Of a DNA stretch of 64,000 nt, positions 18,462 through 30,306 are shown one piece after another. The translations under genes and the position numbers were made by a program. The stretch is from NCBI RefSeq assembly GCF_041355105.1, contig NZ_JBFUPK010000001.1, positions 1,550,001 through 1,614,000 of the forward strand, written 5' to 3'. The number at the start of each line of letters is the position of its first letter. The stretch's first letter is position 1. This stretch comes from Terriglobus sp. RCC_193 (GTDB taxonomy: Bacteria > Acidobacteriota > Terriglobia > Terriglobales > Acidobacteriaceae). Below the pieces are notes generated by a model. It ran no database searches and was not told the DNA's origin. It worked only from the letters and a program-made list of their open reading frames with translations.

Positions 18462-21400
18462 TTATGAAACGCAGGGTGCTGCTCCCTGCACGTGATCCTC
18501 ATCTTCTGATGACAAAGGCACGTCCTTTCCCTCGAACAGGGGGTACACAACGGGCACCAGCAGAAGCGTTAGAGCTGTAGAAGTAACCAGTCCACCGATA
18601 ACAACGATTGCGAGGGGCCGCTGAATCTCCGATCCCGGGCCTGTCGCAAACAGGAATGGCACAAGTCCCAGCGCCGCCACAGTGGCCGTCATCATGACGG
18701 GGCGAAAACGCAAAGCAGTGCCTTCGCGAATTGCCTCAGCCTGGGATCGCCCTTCGTAACGGAGCTTCTTGATGTAGCTAACAAGAACGACTCCGTTCAA
18801 TACTGCGATGCCCCAAAGCGCAATGAAGCCTACGGATGCCGGAACGGAAAGGTATTCACCCGTGACGAACAGACCGATAATGCCACCGATGGACGCCAGA
18901 GGCAGGACGGTAATGATCAGCGCCGCGTATCGCACGGACTTAAAGAGCACGAAGAGTAGAAAGAAAATGGCTGCAATCGTGATGGGGACAATAATCATCA
19001 AGTGATGCAGGGCACGTTCCATGTTATGGAACTGTCCTCCCCACTCAATGAAATAACCGGAAGGCAGCGGCACCTGCTGATCCACCTTCTGCTGCAACTC
19101 CTTCACATATCCGCCAAGGTCACGTCCCTGTACGTTCACACCCACGACGATGCGGCGTTTGCCCATGCTGCGGTTAATCAGAGCAGGGCCTTCCATCACC
19201 TTTACATCTGCGAGTTCCTTCAAGGGGAGGTGAGGCCCATCCGGCGAACTGATAAGTAGCTCTCGTACGTCTTCCACGCTGTCGCGCAGCCGCGCAGGAA
19301 GTCGTACCACTCCAGAAAATCGCCGCTCACCTTCGTAGATCTGCGTAGCGGACTTTCCTGCAATTGCTGTTTCAATCACTTCATTTACGTCCGATGCGTT
19401 AAGGCCGTAACGTGCGATCGCACCACGATTGATCTGGATCGTTAAGTACTGCTGGCCACCGACACGATCCACACGCGTATCCTGCGTGCCCGTAATGCTG
19501 CTCGCCACACGCGCGATATCGCCGGCTTTTTTCACCAACAAATTGAGATCGTCGCCATACAACATTACCGCTACATCTGCACGGACACCGGAAACCATTT
19601 CATCCACACGATCACTAATGGGTTGCGACATTACCAAGTTAATGCCGGGGAGTGTGGCAAGCTTTTCCCGTATCTGCTCTGCAATCCGATCCTGCGTCAT
19701 CCCGCGTGGTCTTTCATCAAACGGCGTCAGGGATGCAAGTACGTCTGCTTCATTGGGGCCTGCAGGATCGGCCGGAGATTCACCACGTCCCACACGGCTG
19801 ACAACATTCTCCACCCCCGGAACCTTGAGCATGAGGGCCTGCATCTGCTTTTCCATTCGCAGCGATTCATCCAACGAGATATTGGGAACACGATCCGCGT
19901 TGGGTGAGAGTGTCCCTTCCTGCATCTCCGGGATGAACGATGTGCCCAGGAATGGGAACAGGCACAATGACGCCACGAACAACGCAACGACACCGGCGAT
20001 CATCCACCTGCGGTGGCGAGTGGCCCAATGAAGTAAAGACTGGTAGGGGCGACGCAGGATGCGCACTAGCCATGTGTCGTTTTCTGTTCCGCCTTTCAAC
20101 AGATAGGAACACAGTACGGGCGAAAGTGTAAGCGAAAGCACCAGAGAAATGGCAAGCGCGATGGCGATGGTATACGCCAATGGCGCAAACATTTTTCCTT
20201 CCATCCCCTCCAGAGTCATCAGTGGGAGAAAGACGAGGATGATGATGGTAACGCCGAATACTGTGGGAGTCGCAACATCTCCAACCGCCTGCAGAACTAT
20301 GTCGCACTTCCCGCGACGGCTCATTGGACGACCACCATGTGATGCATGGCTCAATGTTGCAAACACATTCTCCACCACCACGACAGAACCATCCACCATA
20401 AGACCAATGGCAATTGCCAGACCACCAAGCGACATCAGATTCGCTGAGATATGGAGATAGTTCATAGCCATAAACGTCAGCAGTGGCGTCAACACAAGAT
20501 TGGCACTGACGATGAGACTGGAACGTAAATCGCCAAGGAAGAGGAAGAGAATAACAACGACCAGAACAATTCCCTCTCCCAGCACTTCAGTCACGGTATG
20601 TATCGCCGCATCCACAAGTTGCGAACGGTCGTAGTACGGAACAATCTGGAGGCCGTCAGGAATCATATGCCGCGTATTGATTTCTGCCACACGCTCTTTG
20701 ACTCGACTGACAATTTCCTTTGCGTTACCACCACTGGTCATCAGAACGACGCCACCTACCGCCTCTGAATATCCGTTTTTCATCATGGCGCCATATCGAA
20801 CTTCTGTTCCGATACGGACATCTGCCACATCACGGATATAAACCGGCGTTCCGCCTGTCTCTTTCAGAACGATATTGCGGATGTCATCGAGATCGCGAAT
20901 TAGTCCCACACTACGGATCAGATATTGTTCTGCGTGTTGCGGCAGAACGCCCCCGCCTTCATTCGCATTGTTGTGCGATAGAGCGGAACTCACATCATGA
21001 ATCGTCAGGTTGTAATAATGCAATTTCTGAGGATCGACAAGAGTTTCATACTGCTTGACGAATCCTCCGGTGGAGTTAATTTCTGCAACACCGGATATGG
21101 AGCGCAGCAACGGTCGAACAATCCAATCCTGGAGAGTACGCCGCTGGATGAGTTCCTCTTGTGTCAGCACATGCTTGGCTTCCGCTTCACCTGGAACTTC
21201 CAACGTGTATTGATACACCTCACCCAATGCATTTGTAATGGGGCCGAGCACCGGAGTTACACCCTCCGGCATACGATCTCGCAATTCCGCGAGGCGCTCA
21301 GAGATCATCTGGCGTTCACGAAAGAGATCACTCTCATCACTGAAGACCAGCGTAATCAGCGAGAGTCCCGGCTTATTCAGCGAACGCATGTCCGTCATAC

Positions 21401-21632
21401 CTGGCAACCCAGTCATGGCGATTTCGATAGGTACCGTAACAAAGCGTTCTACTTCCTCAGGACTTTTCCCAGTAGCCTCAGTCGCAATCTGAACCTGTAC
21501 ATTTGCAACATCCGGAAAAGCATCCACAGAAAGATGCTTTGCCGCATTCAGGCCAAAGCCAAGCAGAACGCATGTGACGACAACCAGGATGAGACGCTGC
21601 CGCAGAGCGCCTGCGATAAGGCGTTGCAGCAT
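18462..21632 (-). CDS. Heavy-metal-type RND efflux permease (CzcA/CusA family)
   Basis: This is a 1056-residue inner-membrane RND pump with 12 transmembrane segments and two large periplasmic loops, which exchanges cytoplasmic or periplasmic metal ions for protons. The TM4 motif reads AIAIGLMVDGSVVVVEN. This is intermediate between the CzcA form (with DFG and DGAV) and the CusA form, so I do not assign the metal. The C-terminal half contains GFIALWGIAVLNGVVLVSYI and RFRPVMMTATVAALGLVPF, as in heavy-metal RND pumps. It is the last gene of a three-gene operon; the adaptor stop is only 2 bp upstream. Expression is probably driven by the sigma-54 promoter at 24097-24114. Confidence 0.9.
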   Translation of the reverse strand: MLQRLIAGALRQRLILVVVTCVLLGFGLNAAKHLSVDAFPDVANVQVQIATEATGKSPEEVERFVTVPIEIAMTGLPGMTDMRSLNKPGLSLITLVFSDESDLFRERQMISERLAELRDRMPEGVTPVLGPITNALGEVYQYTLEVPGEAEAKHVLTQEELIQRRTLQDWIVRPLLRSISGVAEINSTGGFVKQYETLVDPQKLHYYNLTIHDVSSALSHNNANEGGGVLPQHAEQYLIRSVGLIRDLDDIRNIVLKETGGTPVYIRDVADVRIGTEVRYGAMMKNGYSEAVGGVVLMTSGGNAKEIVSRVKERVAEINTRHMIPDGLQIVPYYDRSQLVDAAIHTVTEVLGEGIVLVVVILFLFLGDLRSSLIVSANLVLTPLLTFMAMNYLHISANLMSLGGLAIAIGLMVDGSVVVVENVFATLSHASHGGRPMSRRGKCDIVLQAVGDVATPTVFGVTIIILVFLPLMTLEGMEGKMFAPLAYTIAIALAISLVLSLTLSPVLCSYLLKGGTENDTWLVRILRRPYQSLLHWATRHRRWMIAGVVALFVASLCLFPFLGTSFIPEMQEGTLSPNADRVPNISLDESLRMEKQMQALMLKVPGVENVVSRVGRGESPADPAGPNEADVLASLTPFDERPRGMTQDRIAEQIREKLATLPGINLVMSQPISDRVDEMVSGVRADVAVMLYGDDLNLLVKKAGDIARVASSITGTQDTRVDRVGGQQYLTIQINRGAIARYGLNASDVNEVIETAIAGKSATQIYEGERRFSGVVRLPARLRDSVEDVRELLISSPDGPHLPLKELADVKVMEGPALINRSMGKRRIVVGVNVQGRDLGGYVKELQQKVDQQVPLPSGYFIEWGGQFHNMERALHHLMIIVPITIAAIFFLLFVLFKSVRYAALIITVLPLASIGGIIGLFVTGEYLSVPASVGFIALWGIAVLNGVVLVSYIKKLRYEGRSQAEAIREGTALRFRPVMMTATVAALGLVPFLFATGPGSEIQRPLAIVVIGGLVTSTALTLLLVPVVYPLFEGKDVPLSSEDEDHVQGAAPCVS

Positions 21633-21634
21633 AC

Positions 21635-22792
21635 TTATTCGCCCCCTTTAATGGCCGCCTGCTTGCGCTGATTGTTGAGATGGAAGGCTCCATCCAGAAC
21701 CAGAGAATCTGCTGCGGTAATGCCACTGACAACAGCGCGACGGTCATTTTCCTCCGCACCAAGCACCACTTCGCGAAGGATGTAGCGTCCCTTCCCGATG
21801 CGCACGAAGACATGATCTTTGTCTTCTTCACGCACCACCGCAGTGTTGGGTATTGTCAATTGCTTTTGACTCTTGCCAGTAAAAGCCATGCTGGCAAGCT
21901 GATCGGGCTTCAGGATTCCCGCAGTATTTGCAACGTCCATCCGCACGGCAATGGTCCTGGTATTGGGATCCACAATCGGCGATACGAAACTAAGCTGGCC
22001 GTGGATATCTTCCGTCTGCAGCGCAGGGATACGAACGACCACTTCCATCCCCTGCTGCAGCACAGCACCCTCTTCTTCAGGAACATTGGCTACGATCCAG
22101 ACACTGGAAAGATCGGCAATCGTAAAGGCTGGGTCAGCAGGCTGCACTACCTGTCCTACCGTCACGTCGCGTTTCAACACCGTGCCTGAACGCGGAGACA
22201 CGATCGGATAATCAGCACTCAGTCTGCGATTCGTCTCCACTTGATGAATTTGTGCCTCGGTCATTCCAAAACCACGCAACTGTGTTCGATATGCAGCAAC
22301 TTCGGTCGCAGCCTGCAACTGTTCTGCACGCCTACGTTCCAGTTCTGCACGACCGATGACATCCGCTGCAACAAGTTGTTCCGCACGCAAAACTCCGGCT
22401 GCTGCCAGTCCTTGCTGCGATTCCGCCTTGATCAGTTGCATCTGTGCATCGGAAAGGTCTGTGCTGTGAAGTGTGGCTAGAACTGCGCCGGCATTGACCT
22501 TCTGCCCCTCAAAGACAATCAGCCGAAGAATTCTTCCGGCAACCGGCGACCCAACACGCGCAATGCGCCGCGCATCTGTTTCCACATGCGCTGCCACTTG
22601 AAGTGTTCCAGTTGAGTCTGTGATTTGCGCCGTACCCACCTTCAGGTTGTTTGCCAGTTCCGCGCTCACCGTGACGATGTTAGGGTCCTGTGGCTGCGCT
22701 ACATTTTTTTCTTGGATCTTTTGTTTGCATCCCGCGATGAACGCAAGAGAACACAGACACATCAACTGAAATTTTGAAAAGCTTACTTTCAC
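21635..22792 (-). CDS. RND periplasmic adaptor (membrane fusion) lipoprotein
   Basis: This encodes 385 residues. The signal peptide ends in a lipobox (IAGC) with the acceptor cysteine at residue 22, so it is probably lipidated. A barrel-sandwich/lipoyl half-motif (VGSPVAGRILRLIVFEGQKV), a coiled-coil hairpin (about 110-185) and beta-barrel segments follow, as in CzcB/CusB adaptors that bridge pump and outer-membrane channel. It has no obvious His-rich extension for metal sensing. It overlaps the TolC-like gene by 4 bp and is 2 bp from the pump gene, so the three are translationally coupled. Confidence 0.88.
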   Translation of the reverse strand: MKVSFSKFQLMCLCSLAFIAGCKQKIQEKNVAQPQDPNIVTVSAELANNLKVGTAQITDSTGTLQVAAHVETDARRIARVGSPVAGRILRLIVFEGQKVNAGAVLATLHSTDLSDAQMQLIKAESQQGLAAAGVLRAEQLVAADVIGRAELERRRAEQLQAATEVAAYRTQLRGFGMTEAQIHQVETNRRLSADYPIVSPRSGTVLKRDVTVGQVVQPADPAFTIADLSSVWIVANVPEEEGAVLQQGMEVVVRIPALQTEDIHGQLSFVSPIVDPNTRTIAVRMDVANTAGILKPDQLASMAFTGKSQKQLTIPNTAVVREEDKDHVFVRIGKGRYILREVVLGAEENDRRAVVSGITAADSLVLDGAFHLNNQRKQAAIKGGE

Positions 22793-24084
22793 GGCGTAAC
22801 TCCAGACGGCGCTACCGCACCGAGTTCTTCTAAGTCGACCAGCGCTGATTGGCGTGCGTATCGGGCGTCCAACAAATCACCTCGAACACTCTGGAGAACG
22901 CGCTGTGCGTCCAGCACCTCCACGATGCCTCGCTCGCCAAATCGATACGCCGATTGCGCAGCCTGCACGGCACTTTCTGCAGCATGCAGTGGGCCCGCTT
23001 CAAGGCTTGAGACCTGCTCATCGGCCAATTGATATTGCTCATAGGAACGTTCCAATGCCGCCGTAATTTCAATCTGACGTTGCTCCTGAACCGCATCCGT
23101 CCGCGCAATGGTCGCCTTCGCTTCTTCAATCGTGCCTCTTCTACGGTCAAAAAGTGGCAGCGGCACGGTGATGCCGGCTCGCCAATAACGAAGGTCTGGT
23201 TGATTTTCGAACTCCGCAAATGCCGTAGGCTGCGGGATACGAAGCGCGCGCTCCCGCTCCAACGAAGCCTTTGCTGCCTGTCGCTCCTCTGCAGATTGCA
23301 AAAGTGCAGGATGACTCCGGAAAATGTCGCGCCGAAGATCAGCAAACGATGGCAATGCCAGTCTCGGTTCCAGGCTCCCCTGCGGATTCAGATTCACTTC
23401 CGCGGGCGCAGCAATTACCGCCCTGAGATTCGCGATTGCCTGCGCGTATTCCAACTGCGCACTGGTTACCGCAAACTGCGCGCGTGCCAGTTCCGCAGTT
23501 GCACGCGTCAACTCCAGCTTGCCCTTTTCCCCTGCGTTTACCTCGACCGTGACGCGCCGATGCAGATCATTCACCAACTGAAGGCTCTCCATGGCATTGG
23601 CGGCCCCCTCTCTTCGATGGAGGGCTTCATAAAACGCATGCCGTGTATCTGCATCCACGGACCGAAGGACACCCTGTCCAGCCCAATGGCTCGCCTCACT
23701 TGCATGCTCCGCAACACGTTTGCGCGCACTACGTTCCGATGGAATTTCAATAGTCTGTGATCCGGCATAGTGCTGCAGCAGCCCCGGGACGCCTGGCGTT
23801 GCAATGGGTCGCGCATACTGTCGTCCTGCAAATATCTCTACGCTGGGATTACTGTAAGCGCGCGCCGTCTTGATTCCAGCCTTTGCTGCCGCCACATCTG
23901 CCTCTGCCTCCTTGAGGTGAGGACTGTTCGCATGTGACATGGCAAGAGCCTGATCCAGAGTAAGTGAGAGACTAGCCTTGGAATCCGAACTCACAGTGCC
24001 TCCGCCAGACGATAGAGATTGTGCTGACAGCAGAGAACAGACGGAGAACAATGTTCCAGTTATAGCTATGCAAAAACGCTTCAC
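22789..24084 (-). CDS. Outer-membrane efflux channel (TolC family, CzcC-like)
   Basis: This encodes 431 residues with a signal peptide (MKRFCIAITGTLFSVCSLLSAQ) and the duplicated alpha-helical TolC core (for example ALAMSHANSPHLKEAEADVAAAKAG). It provides the outer-membrane duct of the tripartite pump. It is the first gene of the operon, and its stop overlaps the adaptor start by 4 bp. The predicted sigma-54 transcription start at about 24086 leaves almost no leader. This means either a nearly leaderless mRNA or a start used further upstream or downstream than predicted. Confidence 0.87.
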   Translation of the reverse strand: MKRFCIAITGTLFSVCSLLSAQSLSSGGGTVSSDSKASLSLTLDQALAMSHANSPHLKEAEADVAAAKAGIKTARAYSNPSVEIFAGRQYARPIATPGVPGLLQHYAGSQTIEIPSERSARKRVAEHASEASHWAGQGVLRSVDADTRHAFYEALHRREGAANAMESLQLVNDLHRRVTVEVNAGEKGKLELTRATAELARAQFAVTSAQLEYAQAIANLRAVIAAPAEVNLNPQGSLEPRLALPSFADLRRDIFRSHPALLQSAEERQAAKASLERERALRIPQPTAFAEFENQPDLRYWRAGITVPLPLFDRRRGTIEEAKATIARTDAVQEQRQIEITAALERSYEQYQLADEQVSSLEAGPLHAAESAVQAAQSAYRFGERGIVEVLDAQRVLQSVRGDLLDARYARQSALVDLEELGAVAPSGVTP

Positions 24085-24384
24085 ATTTGAAGTGATGGCA
24101 ATTCCATTGCCAAATCGATATCGCCGGAAACAGCAACGTTTAAACCCATTCCGAATACGCCGGCTGTTCCATTTGGGACAGCAGTGTCCCGTAAAGCGCA
24201 GCGGCTGATCACGGTCACATCACTCAAACCTTGGGAAATTAAGCGTTGCAGCCTTGGCTATTGAATTGCACTTACCAGGCCGGTGTTTTACTCAAACCAC
24301 TTCGCATATCACGCATCTCTGCCATCGGCACGGCTCGCTGGGATAGGAGCGGGGCGCCTGGACAATGCGTGGGACAATAGGCCT
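24085..24384. promoter_or_regulatory. Divergent sigma-54 control region with central enhancer
   Basis: Minus strand: TTTGGCAATGGAATTGC (24098-24114) has GG and GC separated by exactly ten bases, the -24/-12 spacing of sigma-54 promoters, and faces the efflux operon (predicted +1 near 24086). Plus strand: TTGGCTATTGAATTGCA (24254-24270) has the same spacing and faces the kinase/regulator genes (+1 near 24281). Between them alternating half-sites TGTTCC, GGGACA and TGTCCC lie at 24165, 24175 and 24185, ten bases apart. The perfect dyad GGGACA-GCAG-TGTCCC is centred at 24182, about 97 bp from both starts. It suits the NtrC-type regulator encoded here. No gene is present. Confidence 0.8.
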
Positions 24385-25506
24385 ATGAAGCCCATGGAGA
24401 GTATGCGCACCAGCAAGATGAAAGCAGCACTGATCGTCTGCCTCGTTATCTTGCTGGCCGTTTTCACATGGTTTATCCCGCCCCGTGCAGAGTGGCTTCA
24501 TAACATTCTCCATCACCTGAATATTCTTCCTTTTATGCTTGCTGGATTGTTCTTCGGCTGGCGTGGAACACTGAAGACAATCCTGTTTGCAATCGTCCTA
24601 CAAACACCTTCCATTTACCGCCACTGGCGCGCCGCACCGACCGATGCGCAGGACCAGATTGTCGAACTGAGTACATTCGGAGCCGCAGGTATCATCGCTG
24701 GTGTTTTGTCAGATCGTGAACGAACACTCCGCATGCGTGTGGAAGCGACTAAGCGCGAGTTGGAAACAGTGCACTCCGAATTGCAGCAGAATATTGAGCA
24801 TCTTCGAAAGACTGAGAGATTAACCGCCGCTGGGCAGCTTTCGGCAAGTCTGGCCCACGAGATTCGCAACCCGCTGGCGAGCATAAGTGGTGCCGCCGGA
24901 ATTCTGTCCCGCGGACATGCCTCCGAAAGCAGCCAGAGAGAGTGTCTGGAAATTCTTACGAAAGAGTCTCAGAGGCTGAATAAGTTACTGACAAATTTTC
25001 TTATCTTTGCAAGACCGCGGCTTCCACGGCTTCAACAGGTGGAAGCGAATGACCTGTTGCGATCTGTGGCTACCCTTGCGCAACATGCGACTGCGGAACG
25101 TAATATCAAGCTACAACTGAATTTGATTGCGATCCCGCAGAAGATTACCTGTGATCCAGAGCAGATTCGGCAATTGTTGCTGAATCTACTTTTGAATGCG
25201 ATCCAGGCATCACCAGAGGATGGCATCGTGAACATGACAACATCTCTCACCGCAACCGATCTTGTGATTGAAGTAAGCGACGAAGGTGAAGGAATCACTG
25301 GACAGGTTGCGGAACGGATCTTCGATCCATTCTTCACAACAAAGGCAAATGGTACGGGTCTAGGTCTGGCGATTGCAGCGACAATCGCATCGCAGCATGC
25401 TGGAGCTCTCACGTACAAATCTAATCTGCCACAAGGCGCCTGCTTTCTTCTTCAACTTCCGTTGACCGCGACGCATATCCCGTCCAATCTTGTGGGAGCC
25501 GCATAA
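24385..25506 (+). CDS. Membrane sensor histidine kinase, NtrB/ZraS type
   Basis: This is a 373-residue sensor. Two or three hydrophobic segments lie in the first 110 residues (LIVCLVILLAVFTWFI and the segments after it), with only short periplasmic loops. A coiled coil (about 120-150), a HisKA domain with the H-box LAHEIRNPLASI, and a HATPase domain with NLLLNAIQAS, DEGEGI and GTGLGLAIA follow. No PAS or HAMP domain is obvious. Its stop overlaps the regulator start by one base (TAATG). The start is uncertain: ATG codons at 24385, 24394, 24403 and 24418 are all in frame. It is divergent from the efflux operon, whose regulation it probably senses. Confidence 0.85.
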   Translation: MKPMESMRTSKMKAALIVCLVILLAVFTWFIPPRAEWLHNILHHLNILPFMLAGLFFGWRGTLKTILFAIVLQTPSIYRHWRAAPTDAQDQIVELSTFGAAGIIAGVLSDRERTLRMRVEATKRELETVHSELQQNIEHLRKTERLTAAGQLSASLAHEIRNPLASISGAAGILSRGHASESSQRECLEILTKESQRLNKLLTNFLIFARPRLPRLQQVEANDLLRSVATLAQHATAERNIKLQLNLIAIPQKITCDPEQIRQLLLNLLLNAIQASPEDGIVNMTTSLTATDLVIEVSDEGEGITGQVAERIFDPFFTTKANGTGLGLAIAATIASQHAGALTYKSNLPQGACFLLQLPLTATHIPSNLVGAA

Positions 25507-26903
25507 TGAAGCCGAATCATATTCTCGTGGTAGATGATGACAGCAGTCTTCGTCGTGTCATGCAGATACAGCTTGAAGAAGCTGGCTATGAAGTCACACT
25601 GGCAAGTGATGGTGGCGAAGCCTGCAAGTTATTGGCGTCAGAAAAACCTCCGCTCGTCATCACTGATCTCCGAATGCCTACAAGTGGAATGGAGCTTCTC
25701 AGTTTCATTCAACGCGAAAATCTGATGACCACGGTCATTGTCGTAACCGCCTTTGGAACTGTGGAAAGCGCTGTCGAGGCAATGCGAAGTGGTGCGTACG
25801 ACTATGTGACCAAGCCTCTGGATTTTGATGCACTACTGCTGGTCGTACATCGCGCTATGGAACGGCAGAACCTTCTGGAAGAGGTTCGAACGCTGCGCTC
25901 TGCATTAGACCAGCGTTACGAGTTCAGCGGTATCATCGCCCAGTCAAAGAGCTTTCTCCGCGTACTTGATCAGGCAGCACGTGTCGCAGAACGAGATGCC
26001 ACGGTCCTGATTCAGGGTGAGACAGGAACAGGCAAAGAGCTGATTGCGCGCGCGATTCATCACAACAGTCGTAGACATAGCCGTCCGTTTGTCGCCATCA
26101 ACTGCGGGGCGATTCCCCGCGATCTTGTGGAGTCAGAACTCTTTGGCTACCGTCGTGGCGCCTTTACAGGCGCCGTCAGTGATCGCCTTGGACGCGTGGA
26201 AGCAGCCGATGGTGGAACGCTGTTCCTGGATGAAATCGGGGAACTTCCACTGGATGCACAGGTAAAGCTTTTGCGCTTACTACAGGAAGGTGAAATCTCT
26301 AAAATCGGCGCAAATAAACCCACGCACGTGAATGTGCGCGTGATTGCTGCCACACATCGAAATCTGCAGGCCATGGTGGAGGATGGGGCCTTTCGCGAAG
26401 ATCTTTACTATCGCCTCGCTGTCGTGCCGCTTTTCATTCCGCCCCTTCGAGAGCGTCGCGAGGATATCCCGTTATTGCTGGCGGAACTGTTTGAACGTTC
26501 TCGCCAACGCCACGGACTTTACGACATCAGCCTTTCGCAAGGGACACTCAAACGGCTCGTTGCGTATCGGTGGCCAGGAAATGTACGTGAGATGGAAAAT
26601 GTTCTGGAGCGTTTGATCGTGCTGGCAACCCATAGTCTGATCACAGAAGGTGATTTACCAGAAGAGATTGCGCGGCCATCGCAACATGCGCCACCACTGT
26701 GGCCCGATCTGCCAGAAGAAGGGATCAGCCTGGAAGCGGTGGAGAAAGACCTAATCAGCCGTGCCCTCGAGAAATTTCATGGGAACCAGACACACGCTGC
26801 ACGATACCTCGATATCAGCCGTCGCACACTGATTTATCGCATGGAGAAGCATGGTTTGACTTCGGGACAGGATGCGGATGCTGTGCGCGATATTCGTGCC
26901 TGA
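25506..26903 (+). CDS. Sigma-54-dependent response regulator (NtrC/ZraR type)
   Basis: This encodes 465 residues with a receiver domain (1-120, phosphoacceptor D54 in VITDLRMP), an AAA+ domain (about 140-375, Walker A GETGTGKE, sigma-54 contact loop [15 protein letters not shown]) and a C-terminal Fis-type helix-turn-helix ([18 protein letters not shown]). Phosphorylated proteins of this class bind upstream enhancers and drive open-complex formation by sigma-54 polymerase. The matching promoters and a dyad enhancer lie at 24085-24384, supporting control of both the efflux operon and its own genes. It is translationally coupled to the kinase. Confidence 0.92.
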
Positions 26904-26928: not shown

Positions 26929-27354
26929 TTGCATCTCGTTCTGGATCATGCTCTACTGTGGCCATTGCGTAAGCTTCTTGCATTGGCGTTGCTGATCATT
27001 TTTGGATTCAGCTTTGTTCCGCCGCTCCTGGCTGCGACCGGTAGCGAATCGACGTTGCCTGCCTGCTGCCGCAAAACTGCGAAGCATCATTGCATGGCAA
27101 TGCAGGATGATTCCGATCCCACGGCACATGCTTCACATACAGAGTTACGTTCACGCATGGATCATTGCCCATGCTGCGGTGTGCTGGGGTCAACCGCTGT
27201 CCATGTGGATGCCTTTGCTTCCACTACATTTTCCGGCAACGTCACGCCGCGCTCTACGCGCTCGGGTTTATTCCCGCAGATCTCGATCTACTCTCTCGCA
27301 GATCCGGTCTATAGCCATGGTAAACGTGGTCCCCCTTCCCATCTCCAGGCCTGA
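26929..27354 (+). CDS. Small exported Cys/His/Met-rich protein next to metal-efflux regulators
   Basis: This encodes about 129-141 residues. A signal-like segment, RKLLALALLIIFGFSFVPPLLA, spans about 16-37 and is given here in two parts: RKLLALALLII and FGFSFVPPLLA. Two metal-ligand clusters follow: ACCRKTAKHHCMAM and, 22 residues later, HCPCC. The clustered Cys, His and Met suggest periplasmic binding of a soft metal such as copper or zinc. The start is unclear: TTG 26929 or TTG 26965, neither with a good ribosome site. It lies 25 bp after the NtrC-type regulator and 69 bp before a TonB receptor. I know of no described family function, and a metal-sensing or chaperone role is inferred. Confidence 0.6.
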   Translation: MHLVLDHALLWPLRKLLALALLIIFGFSFVPPLLAATGSESTLPACCRKTAKHHCMAMQDDSDPTAHASHTELRSRMDHCPCCGVLGSTAVHVDAFASTTFSGNVTPRSTRSGLFPQISIYSLADPVYSHGKRGPPSHLQA

Positions 27355-27423
27355 TTCACACACGTTTTGACTTCATCAGAAGGGGCGTGTGTAAGACACG
27401 TTTCCTTTTCCATGGAGATTTTC

Positions 27424-30306
27424 ATGCTTCAGTCCGCACGCACATCCGTGCTCGCTGCGCTTCTTCCTTTAGCCGCAGTGGCTATCTCATATCCTGTATT
27501 TTGCCAGGAGAGTCTTACCAGCAGCTCCCTCACTGGCCGCGTCGTCGATAGTACCGGCGCACTTATTCCGTCGGCCCAAGTGTCTGTTGTCGCTTCCTCA
27601 ACACGACTTCGATTTAACGCAACTACAGATAACCGTGGTCGTTTTCGAATCCCTTATCTCGCCCCCGGAAACTACGTCATCACCTCGCAAGCTTCGGGAT
27701 TCAATACGGCATCTACTTCAACACAATTGACCATTGGTGGCTCCTTCGACGTCACCTTGCAAATGACGGTAGGAACCGAAACCACGACCTTGTCCGTCAT
27801 CGCGGAATCTCCGATTCTCGAACAGAATCGCAGCCAGATTTCAGAGACCGTAAGCCAGGCCGAAATAACACAACTTCCCTTTAGTGGACGAAATTATCTG
27901 GACCTTGCGTTACTGACACCGGGCGTAAGTCCCACAAACACGGCCAGCGTGCAAACCTTCGCCGAAACATCCCCAGTGATCGGACAAGGCTATTCCATCA
28001 ATAGTCAACGGAATTTTTCCAACAGCTTTGTTGTTGATGGTCTATCTGCGAACGACGACGCTGCTGGCCTTGCAGGCAATTCCTACAGCATGGACGTTGT
28101 GCACGAGTTCCAGGTGGTTACATCTGGCGGACAAGCCGAGTTTGGCCGTGCTATGGGCGGCTATTTCAACATTGTCACTCGCAGCGGAGACAATGACCTG
28201 CATGGAACGGTATACGGCTTCCTCCGCAATCAGCGCCTCAACGCTTCCAATGCACTCTCACGAAGCAAGCTTCCGCTGACACAAGGCCAATACGGTGCAA
28301 GCCTTTCGGGTCCGCTCAAAAAAGATCATAGCTTTTTCTTTGGCAACTATGAGGGGCGACGACTGAATACCAATGGAGTAGTTACGATTAACCCGGCACA
28401 GGCTGCAGCCGTGAATGCTCGTTTGGATGCCATTGGCTTCACTGGCCCGCGGCTTACCGTGGGCACCGGGCCAACAACGCTGTACCCAACAACAGGCCAC
28501 ACTGATAACGCGTTTGTTCGGTTTGATCATCGATTTAGCGATGCAGACCAGTTCATCGCACGCTATAGCTACTATCGTTTGAATGCAATCAATGCTCGCG
28601 GGGTGGGTGCGCTTGCCGATGTGAGTTACGGCACGGCCGTAATGGATACCAACCATACTGTCGCCATCAGCAATGTGGCTATGCTTTCGCCGCGTACGTT
28701 CAACGAGACGCGTGGCCAGTTCACATGGGATAGTTTGAATGCTCCATCAAATACTCAGAACAGCCCTGCGGTTGTCATCAGTGGTGTGGCAACATTTGGC
28801 CGCTTCTCTTCTTCACCAACAGCGAGGAAGAATCTTCTTTACGAAGTAGTGGACAACCTTGTACTGCAACGAGGAGAACATACCTTCAAGACAGGAATTG
28901 ATTTTCTGTTTAACGATGACACGATTACATTTCCCATGTCGATCGCGGGCTCTTATACCTTCGCATCTCTGAGCGCATTTCAATCTGGCGTCACCACATA
29001 TTCGTCGTACGCACAGAATTTCGGAACGCCCTTCGTACGGCAGAACAATCCCAATACCGGCTTTTATGCGCAGGATGAATGGAAGGCAACGCCGGCGCTC
29101 ACAGTGAATCTAGGCATTCGCTATGATCTACAGTTTCTGAGAACCATTCAGACGGACACAAACAACGTATCTCCTCGAGTGGGTTTTGCATGGTCTCCCT
29201 TTCGCAGCCGCACTACAGTGATCCGCGGAAGCTACGGCTTGTTTTACGACCGCGTTCCACTGCGCGCACTTGCGAATGCACTGCTCTCTGCAAATAATAC
29301 GACCGACCCCTCGCAAGGACGGCTTCTGCAATATAGCTACGTTCCCACTGACACGGGTGCGCCGGCATTTCCCAATGTTTCCACCACGCCTAACCCGGGT
29401 TCGAAAATCAGCTATGCCCTGATGAACCGTAGTATTTCCAACGCTTATTCCGAACAGGAAAGCCTCGGAGTTGAGCAACAACTATCACGCACAGGATCGT
29501 TTGGTATCAGCTATCAACATGTGCGGGGATTGCATCTTCTATCGTCGTACAACACGAACATTAACCTCGATGGAAGCCGCCCTGACAGCACGCGCGGCAA
29601 TATCAAACCCTATGATGGACGCTTCGACTCCACTTACGACGGACTTGCCGTATCGTTTGTCGAGCGTCCCGTTGCGTGGGGCAGCTTACGCGTTTCGTAT
29701 ACATGGTCGAAAGCGACGAACAATGTCGGCGAGTTCTTCTTCAGTTCTCCCAGCAACAACTTCGACTTCAACGTAGATCGCGGTCGCTCAGACGATGATC
29801 AGCGCCATCGAGTTGTTTTCGACGCAACGCTAAATTCGCCAACCTCCCCTGCACACGGCACATGGGATCATGTGACGCATGGCTGGAAGTTAGGTGGCAT
29901 CCTGCAGTACTACTCACGTTTGCCGTTCAACATTGTGACCGGAGGGCAGACAAAACAACAAACAACGCAGCGCCCTTGCGCATTGGGGTACAGCCTAACG
30001 GCCAATGCTGGCACTAATCCTTGTACCGAGGCCCTTAAGGGAGCCATGATTGGGCGCAATGCGGGTGTTGGCTTTGATTTCTTTAACCTGAATACACGGC
30101 TTAGCCGCACCTTTGCACTGACAGACCGGTGGCGGTTAGAGACAATCGCCGAAGCTTTTAATGCACTGAACCATCGCAATGACATGATCCCCAACGCAAC
30201 CTGGGGAACAAATCCCTATCCTACAACTGCAAACGCTTCCTTCGGGCAAGCAACGGCCGTAGGCGATCCACGCAGTGTGCAGCTTGCGCTGCGCATCAGC
30301 TTTTAA
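27424..30306 (+). CDS. TonB-dependent receptor, Oar-like, with N-terminal carboxypeptidase regulatory-like domain
   Basis: This is a 960-residue outer-membrane receptor. A signal peptide covers about 1-28 (MLQSARTSVLAALLPLAAVA), followed by a carboxypeptidase-regulatory-like domain (about 33-120, SSLTGRVVDSTGALIPSA), a plug with ITQLPFSGRNYLDLALL and a beta-barrel ending LALRISF. ATG 27424 has GGAG six bases upstream; ATG 27412 is an alternative. It shows the same architecture as the 3218 receptor but is a clearly different sequence. It follows a metal-efflux regulatory cluster and the Cys-rich protein, so its ligand might be a metal complex. That is context only. Confidence 0.9.
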   Translation: MLQSARTSVLAALLPLAAVAISYPVFCQESLTSSSLTGRVVDSTGALIPSAQVSVVASSTRLRFNATTDNRGRFRIPYLAPGNYVITSQASGFNTASTSTQLTIGGSFDVTLQMTVGTETTTLSVIAESPILEQNRSQISETVSQAEITQLPFSGRNYLDLALLTPGVSPTNTASVQTFAETSPVIGQGYSINSQRNFSNSFVVDGLSANDDAAGLAGNSYSMDVVHEFQVVTSGGQAEFGRAMGGYFNIVTRSGDNDLHGTVYGFLRNQRLNASNALSRSKLPLTQGQYGASLSGPLKKDHSFFFGNYEGRRLNTNGVVTINPAQAAAVNARLDAIGFTGPRLTVGTGPTTLYPTTGHTDNAFVRFDHRFSDADQFIARYSYYRLNAINARGVGALADVSYGTAVMDTNHTVAISNVAMLSPRTFNETRGQFTWDSLNAPSNTQNSPAVVISGVATFGRFSSSPTARKNLLYEVVDNLVLQRGEHTFKTGIDFLFNDDTITFPMSIAGSYTFASLSAFQSGVTTYSSYAQNFGTPFVRQNNPNTGFYAQDEWKATPALTVNLGIRYDLQFLRTIQTDTNNVSPRVGFAWSPFRSRTTVIRGSYGLFYDRVPLRALANALLSANNTTDPSQGRLLQYSYVPTDTGAPAFPNVSTTPNPGSKISYALMNRSISNAYSEQESLGVEQQLSRTGSFGISYQHVRGLHLLSSYNTNINLDGSRPDSTRGNIKPYDGRFDSTYDGLAVSFVERPVAWGSLRVSYTWSKATNNVGEFFFSSPSNNFDFNVDRGRSDDDQRHRVVFDATLNSPTSPAHGTWDHVTHGWKLGGILQYYSRLPFNIVTGGQTKQQTTQRPCALGYSLTANAGTNPCTEALKGAMIGRNAGVGFDFFNLNTRLSRTFALTDRWRLETIAEAFNALNHRNDMIPNATWGTNPYPTTANASFGQATAVGDPRSVQLALRISF

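Follow-up and report, generated by a model that had tools for sequence, protein, structure and literature searches.

The intergenic region between a metal-efflux-type operon and a two-component gene pair in Terriglobus sp. RCC_193 very probably belongs to an autoregulated module, in which an enhancer made of tandem sites serves two divergent sigma-54 promoters, each coupled to a start codon and each predicted to give a leaderless message. The window (the whole 64,000-nucleotide stretch that was analysed) comes from a genome of 4.2 Mb with one match to rpoN and 13 matches to sigma-54 activator domains, nine of them strong. The coupling of both promoters to start codons was missed in the preliminary description of this DNA, which had centred on the symmetry of a single dyad.

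On the minus strand, the efflux operon begins with an outer-membrane efflux protein of the OEP family (22789-24084, PF02321), followed by a periplasmic adaptor (21635-22792; HlyD_D23, RND_mfp), whose gene overlaps that of the outer-membrane protein by 4 bp, and by a heavy-metal RND pump of the CusA/CzcA family (18462-21632), which scored 1111.7 bits in TIGR00914 against a cut-off of 701.45 and whose best solved relative by sequence comparison was ZneA. A 4-bp overlap was likewise stated for adaptor and pump, whose listed ends are 21635 and 21632 (window 21632-22792). With overlapping genes, translation of the pump may depend on the predicted leaderless GTG at the head of the operon. On the plus strand lie a membrane sensor histidine kinase (HisKA, HATPase_c), with a long form at 24283-25506 and a short form starting from 24385, and a response regulator at 25506-26903 (Response_reg, Sigma54_activat, HTH_8). 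The earlier assignment of this neighbouring regulator to the NtrC type held, as Pfam domains revealed a receiver, a sigma-54 AAA+ domain, an AAA lid and a Fis-type HTH, and the GAFTGA motif could be read directly. The membrane sensor part of the kinase contains the motif HNILHHLN (window 24385-25503), whose three histidines make it a possible metal site and which was invariant in an alignment of 10 sequences. Further downstream, a small Cys/His-rich protein (window 26929-27354) matched DUF2946 slightly below the cut-off and is followed by a CarboxypepD_reg/outer-membrane barrel protein (window 27367-30306); both were matched only at L036 and L037 among 20 fetched loci.

A search for the regulator in 61 genomes supplied 20 stretches for a layout check, of which 11 had the full divergent arrangement of pump, kinase and regulator, one (L047) had a weak, distant version and eight lacked it. 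Searching a species collection with a kinase alignment returned 80 loci, the first 37 of which (L167-L203) were checked for layout; L204-L246 (43 of the 80, matching mainly in the kinase core) and L247-L268 fell outside this check. After removal of three duplicates and L047, the final set consisted of 27 loci of distinct sequence, including the window, with the common gene order outer-membrane protein (-), kinase (+) and regulator (+). Their outer-membrane proteins formed 24, 18, 14 and 6 clusters at 90, 80, 70 and 60% identity, and owing to shared ancestry the loci do not amount to 27 independent trials. The nearest named kinase loci were from Acidobacteriota (Terriglobus roseus, Granulicella, Bryocella elongata, Edaphobacter modestus, Acidipila rosea and Bryobacterales MAGs), and the kinase was present at E <= 1e-100 in 20 of 200 genomes drawn from the family. 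Among 13 more distant kinase relatives, one (L182) had a good coupled site together with a perfect dyad, and L186 and L191 offered weaker candidates. Comparison of the window with L036 and L037 revealed a one-codon indel, which spoiled a test by codon position.

Direct reading of the window upheld the claim of two facing GG-N10-GC sites with exact spacing. The promoter of the pump operon (TGGCAATGGAATTGCCA / TGGCAATGGAATTGCC) lies at about 24096-24112 on the minus strand with a predicted +1 near 24086, and that of the kinase and regulator genes (TGGCTATTGAATTGCA) at 24255-24270 on the plus strand with a predicted +1 near 24281. TTGGC-N7-TTGC matched 80 times in one genome, compared with 45 matches for the reversed control, indicating that chance is not negligible for sites in a single genome; both promoters are convincing because they are conserved in relatives. 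GG-N10-GC in a TGGC/TTGC context was found on both sides of the window, and in 27/27 loci on the pump side and 24/27 on the kinase side, a few with CGG or a weak context, and the pump-side counterpart was the top-scoring sigma-54 site on its side in every locus. The minus-strand promoter does have, in the window, the palindromic form that had been pointed out, but this is not a conserved property, since palindromic ends occurred in only 6 of the 27 loci.

The position of the pump-side start codon is tied to this promoter. In the window, the GTG of the outer-membrane component (24082-24084, minus strand) begins 13 nt after the -12 GC, and among the 27 loci the arrangement was GC-N12-GTG in 18 and GC-N13-GTG in nine, the codon being GTG without exception. 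Counting the C as -12 puts this GTG at about +2 or +3. The N-terminus that it opens looked signal-peptide-like by eye in the 27 loci, and the next commonest in-frame start codons were TTG at N45 (seven loci) and at N27 (five loci). On the kinase side, the GTG of the long form (24283-24285, plus strand) also lies 13 nt after the -12 GC, and an in-frame RTG (ATG or GTG) occurred at N11-16 in 24 of the 27 loci. By the spacing from -12, the start codon is predicted to fall within 5 nt of +1 in 27/27 loci for the pump and 24/27 for the kinase. Coupling was absent from the kinase side in L169 (N29), L179 and L180, and L181 combined a weak promoter with an SD-like AGGAG. The kinase-side count is less clean than that for the pump, because it involved choosing sites from as many as three candidates and adding L167 manually.

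Because each predicted +1 falls some 0-5 nt from a start codon, leaderless messages are to be expected on both sides. SD-like 4-mers were found in 3 of 27 pump leaders and 1 of 24 kinase leaders, and at neither start in the window; as a crude baseline, they preceded the first RTG in 83 of 252 genes sampled from the window's genome. The alternative that ordinary leadered transcripts come from sigma-70 promoters further upstream, with the GTG/ATG spacing incidental or due to another constraint, can appeal to other sigma-54-like sites of the genome that stand at N25 or N42 from a start codon. We consider it improbable, because it has to account for exactly N12 or N13 before the same codon in all 27 loci, spread over 14 clusters at 70% identity, as well as for the scarcity of SD-like sequences. 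Conservation is seen in the promoter motifs and in their coupling to start codons, and the 5' ends of the messages are predicted from the motifs.

The stretch between the first RTG and the second ATG of the kinase, 17-35 codons long, contained no stop in 597 codons from 22 loci, compared with 12-20 stops per frame in the remaining five, indicating that the kinase extension is very likely translated. Near its end in the window lies the conserved motif TGGGACAAT (24370-24378, plus strand), 6 nt before the ATG of the short kinase form (24385-24387), which can be taken as a putative extended -10 of sigma-70 type, basal and leaderless, or as coded Trp-Asp-Asn. A TGGGANAAT-like motif preceded a kinase ATG in 23 of the 27 loci, at N6 in 20, at N9 in L174 and L177 and at N7 in L179. 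Our preferred but uncertain reading is that TGGGANAAT acts as an extended -10 that would drive a leaderless basal message, and such a putative promoter would meet a logical need, as a sigma-54 promoter has no way of becoming active first if it requires what it itself produces. The idea that TGGGANAAT is solely a -10 element was weakened by the reading frame that is open upstream of it, and we keep it at reduced confidence.

It is plausible, if on balance doubtful, that TGGGANAAT-N6-ATG instead encodes a motif conserved in the long kinase protein (Trp-Asp/Glu-Asn...Met) and is no promoter. In most loci the motif can be read in frame as W-[DEK]-[ND], it varies in the third base (GAC/GAA/GAG), and the two N9 variants keep the frame, all of which a coding constraint would explain. 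Such a constraint explains less well why the motif ends in AAT in 22 of 23 cases, in GAT once and never in AAC, when the kinase genes use AAC 200 times and AAT 163 times, why TGGGAAAAT-N7-ATG is retained in L179, where it is out of frame and preceded by a stop, and why L046 has TATTCT-N6-ATG in place of the motif. Signals of the leaderless type do exist in this genome, in 464 kb of which TANAAT was found eight times at 6-7 nt before ATG/GTG candidates, compared with about 0.3 per position elsewhere.

The preliminary description had taken the perfect dyad GGGACA-GCAG-TGTCCC (24175-24190) as the enhancer, about 97 bp from each start and extended by a third half-site, TGTTCC. The distances proved accurate, the centre at 24182.5 being separated from the two predicted +1 positions by 96.5 and 98.5 bp, and the exact GGGACA-N4-TGTCCC occurred at only one place in the 4.2 Mb genome, with six more places at one mismatch. 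Comparison with relatives pointed to another unit. GGGACA-N4-TGTCCC was found within two mismatches in only 5 of the 27 loci, whereas TGTCCC-N4-GGGACA reached this level in the intergenic regions of 25 of the 27 loci and in 0.9% of shuffled regions. The conserved unit, enhancer site 1, is represented in the window by TGTTCC-ATTT-GGGACA at 24165-24180, so that the TGTTCC half-site (24165-24170) is present as claimed but belongs to this better site. A weaker site 2 (TGTCCCGTAAAGCGCA, 24185-24200) lies 20 bp from site 1, and the perfect dyad consists of the right half of site 1 and the left half of site 2.

Second matches with at most five mismatches were present in 25 of the 26 loci having site 1, at offsets of 20, 21 or 31-33 bp, that is, two or three helical turns, in 25/25. 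These second matches are singly weak, as 16 of 26 had four or five mismatches, counts that are common in shuffles; matches with at most three mismatches occurred in 9 of 26 loci, compared with 3% of shuffles. It is in the sequence of site 1 and in the phasing of the pair that conservation is seen. Measured from the pump +1, the chosen dyad was 72-109 bp away in all loci but L179 and L180, which lacked a proper site (25 of 27); measured from the kinase +1, it was 65-378 bp away in the 23 loci computed; in L036 and L175 the chosen dyad was the second site. Since these distances vary, symmetry is not the point.

That the symmetric dyad, placed midway, is itself the enhancer and that its symmetry is functional is hence very improbable in our judgement, however striking its perfection, uniqueness and nearly equal distances in the window: the varying kinase-side distances and its rarity among the loci both speak against it. 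The notion of a single shared enhancer between two outward sigma-54 promoters survives in so far as sites and dyad recur in relatives, and loses its midway symmetry. In the comparison with related genomes, which had been proposed as a check, the promoter sites recurred and the enhancer unit, its midway placement and the palindromic promoter had to be reinterpreted. NifA-type enhancer sites are TGT-N10-ACA and belong to an activator with a Fis-type HTH. In the available part of one report, the GlrR-type site is given as TGTC-N10-GACA (PMC4987338). The sites described here resemble both in their inverted TGT...ACA half-sites and differ in being TGTCCC-N4-GGGACA arranged in tandem at two or three helical turns, and we infer that the adjacent regulator binds them. 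TGTYCC-N4-GGNACA matched six places in the genome (control, three forward and one reverse), and no wider regulon is claimed. This search also turned up TGTTCCACGTGGAACA, two identical palindromes 1.5 kb apart on contig 2 (L059 and L060; G000:C2:684760 and 686241), which resemble parS sites.

In the module as we envisage it, the membrane kinase would sense a putative signal, possibly a metal, and pass it to the NtrC-type regulator, which would bind the two sites resembling TGT-N10-ACA that lie in tandem on the same face of the DNA. Looping in either direction would then activate the two divergent sigma-54 promoters, one for the efflux operon and the other for more kinase and regulator. The pump message would be leaderless from its invariant GTG, and the kinase RTG would add 17-35 residues to the sensor. 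Before this sigma-54 loop operates, basal amounts of the short kinase and of the regulator may come from the vegetative extended -10 (TGGGANAAT) ahead of the second kinase ATG.

Signs of similar coupling were found outside this operon. Sites around eight other activators had both short (N12, N13, N15) and longer (N25, N42) spacings to a start codon. A UDP-sugar dehydrogenase gene (L285:11908-13303, G000:C1:481936), located within a polysaccharide cluster that has its own sigma-54 activator, follows a sigma-54-type site with GC-N13-ATG, and GC-N13/14-ATG was kept in 7/7 close orthologues (83-100% identity). Reading 22 more distant homologues gave no clear counterpart; there was a weaker candidate in L340, at N15, and a strong site in L335, with spacing of N40 and beyond, and sigma-54-like sites in these relatives (L340, L335) also stood at N23 or at N40 and more. 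With short and longer spacings both found, start coupling appears recurrent and not universal. In the same polysaccharide cluster, a second sigma-54-like site (L285:4873-4888, minus strand) precedes a 217-codon frame by GC-N12-ATG, with another ATG at N30, and in a genome of another genus (L300) a sigma-54-like site is followed, with GC-N13-ATG, by the start of a 501-codon frame. A search of the genome for the coupling pattern with an N7 spacer gave 25 matches versus 13 for the reversed pattern, and the off-spacing control with N8 gave 31 versus 20, counts too noisy to prove genome-wide coupling. Across 61 genomes, TTTGGC-N7-TTGC-N12/13-RTG had 70 matches versus 19 for the reversed control (hand sums), which is weak support because, of the 29 loci read out of 30 fetched, six were merely this pump operon again and many of the rest lay inside coding sequence. 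We raise only tentatively, and with more doubt than belief, the wider proposition that in Acidobacteriota sigma-54 transcription is often coupled to leaderless translation, with the -24/-12 element dictating the start codon. On this proposition, the present divergent region would hold three leaderless starts: a sigma-70 basal one for the short kinase, a sigma-54 induced one for the longer kinase, and the invariant GTG that would set the translation rate of the pump under stress.

The general outline had been presented as unusual, but it is already known from zraP/zraSR (PMC4987338, partial text). In the parts of two sources at hand, ZraR controls the divergent sigma-54 promoters of zraSR and zraP (PMC4987338, PMC8743547). 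As in ZraSR/zraP of E. coli and Salmonella, target and two-component genes here diverge, with sigma-54 sites, their own NtrC-family regulator and a metal response, the latter features being predictions in our case. The target differs, being a CzcA-type RND operon instead of zraP, and so do the starts, which here lie near the sigma-54 +1, with a -10-like element before the second kinase start, a contrast drawn with the general outline of the zra genes. The regulator scored 476 with the AtoC model, 446 with NtrC and 382 with ZraR, below all three cut-offs; the ZraR and ZraS equivalog models gave 382 of the 760 bits and 207 of the 479 bits required. The three-gene pump, with a CusA/CzcA member above the curated cut-off and ZneA as the nearest solved structure, places the operon with HME-RND efflux systems (CzcCBA, CusCBA, ZneCBA), and unlike those systems as compared here it adjoins a gene for an NtrC-family regulator.

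Leaderless genes, in which the start codon is at or a few nucleotides from +1, are described for Deinococcus-Thermus, Actinobacteria and Acidobacteria, and the accessible text gives a predicted average of 13.3% for three acidobacterial genomes (PMC3160421). The present genes resemble the bacterial leaderless genes of that excerpt in their predicted starts near +1 and in their few SD-like sequences (PMC3160421). In Bradyrhizobium, the excerpted source describes the leaderless motif as an extended -10, TGnTA (PMC4842269), unlike the -24/-12 signal found here, where the pump codon is always GTG. The S. meliloti map, as far as its text was available, lists only AUG among leaderless starts and calls non-AUG starts inefficient in E. 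coli, which counts against reading the GTG here as leaderless (PMC3616915). The same portion of the map assigns sigma-54 motifs to start-site classes, so isolated sigma-54 leaderless cases are possible there (PMC3616915). Divergent sigma-54 control, leaderless genes and CzcA pumps are thus each known, and the predicted conservation of sigma-54-linked leaderless starts is apparently new; among the matches listed from open-access literature, there was no report of it.

Textbooks present sigma-54 promoters as the example of tightly controlled transcription that depends on an activator, and the promoters usually associated with leaderless translation are of the -10 type. If true, a deeply conserved design in which the start codon is tied to the sigma-54 +1 would bring sigma-54 control and leaderless translation together, and in a phylum that has received little study promoters could be used to predict start codons and N-termini. 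The reason for pairing signal-induced transcription with leaderless GTG initiation would become testable, and the coupling suggests in addition that the sensor kinase may switch between two forms that differ at the N-terminus.
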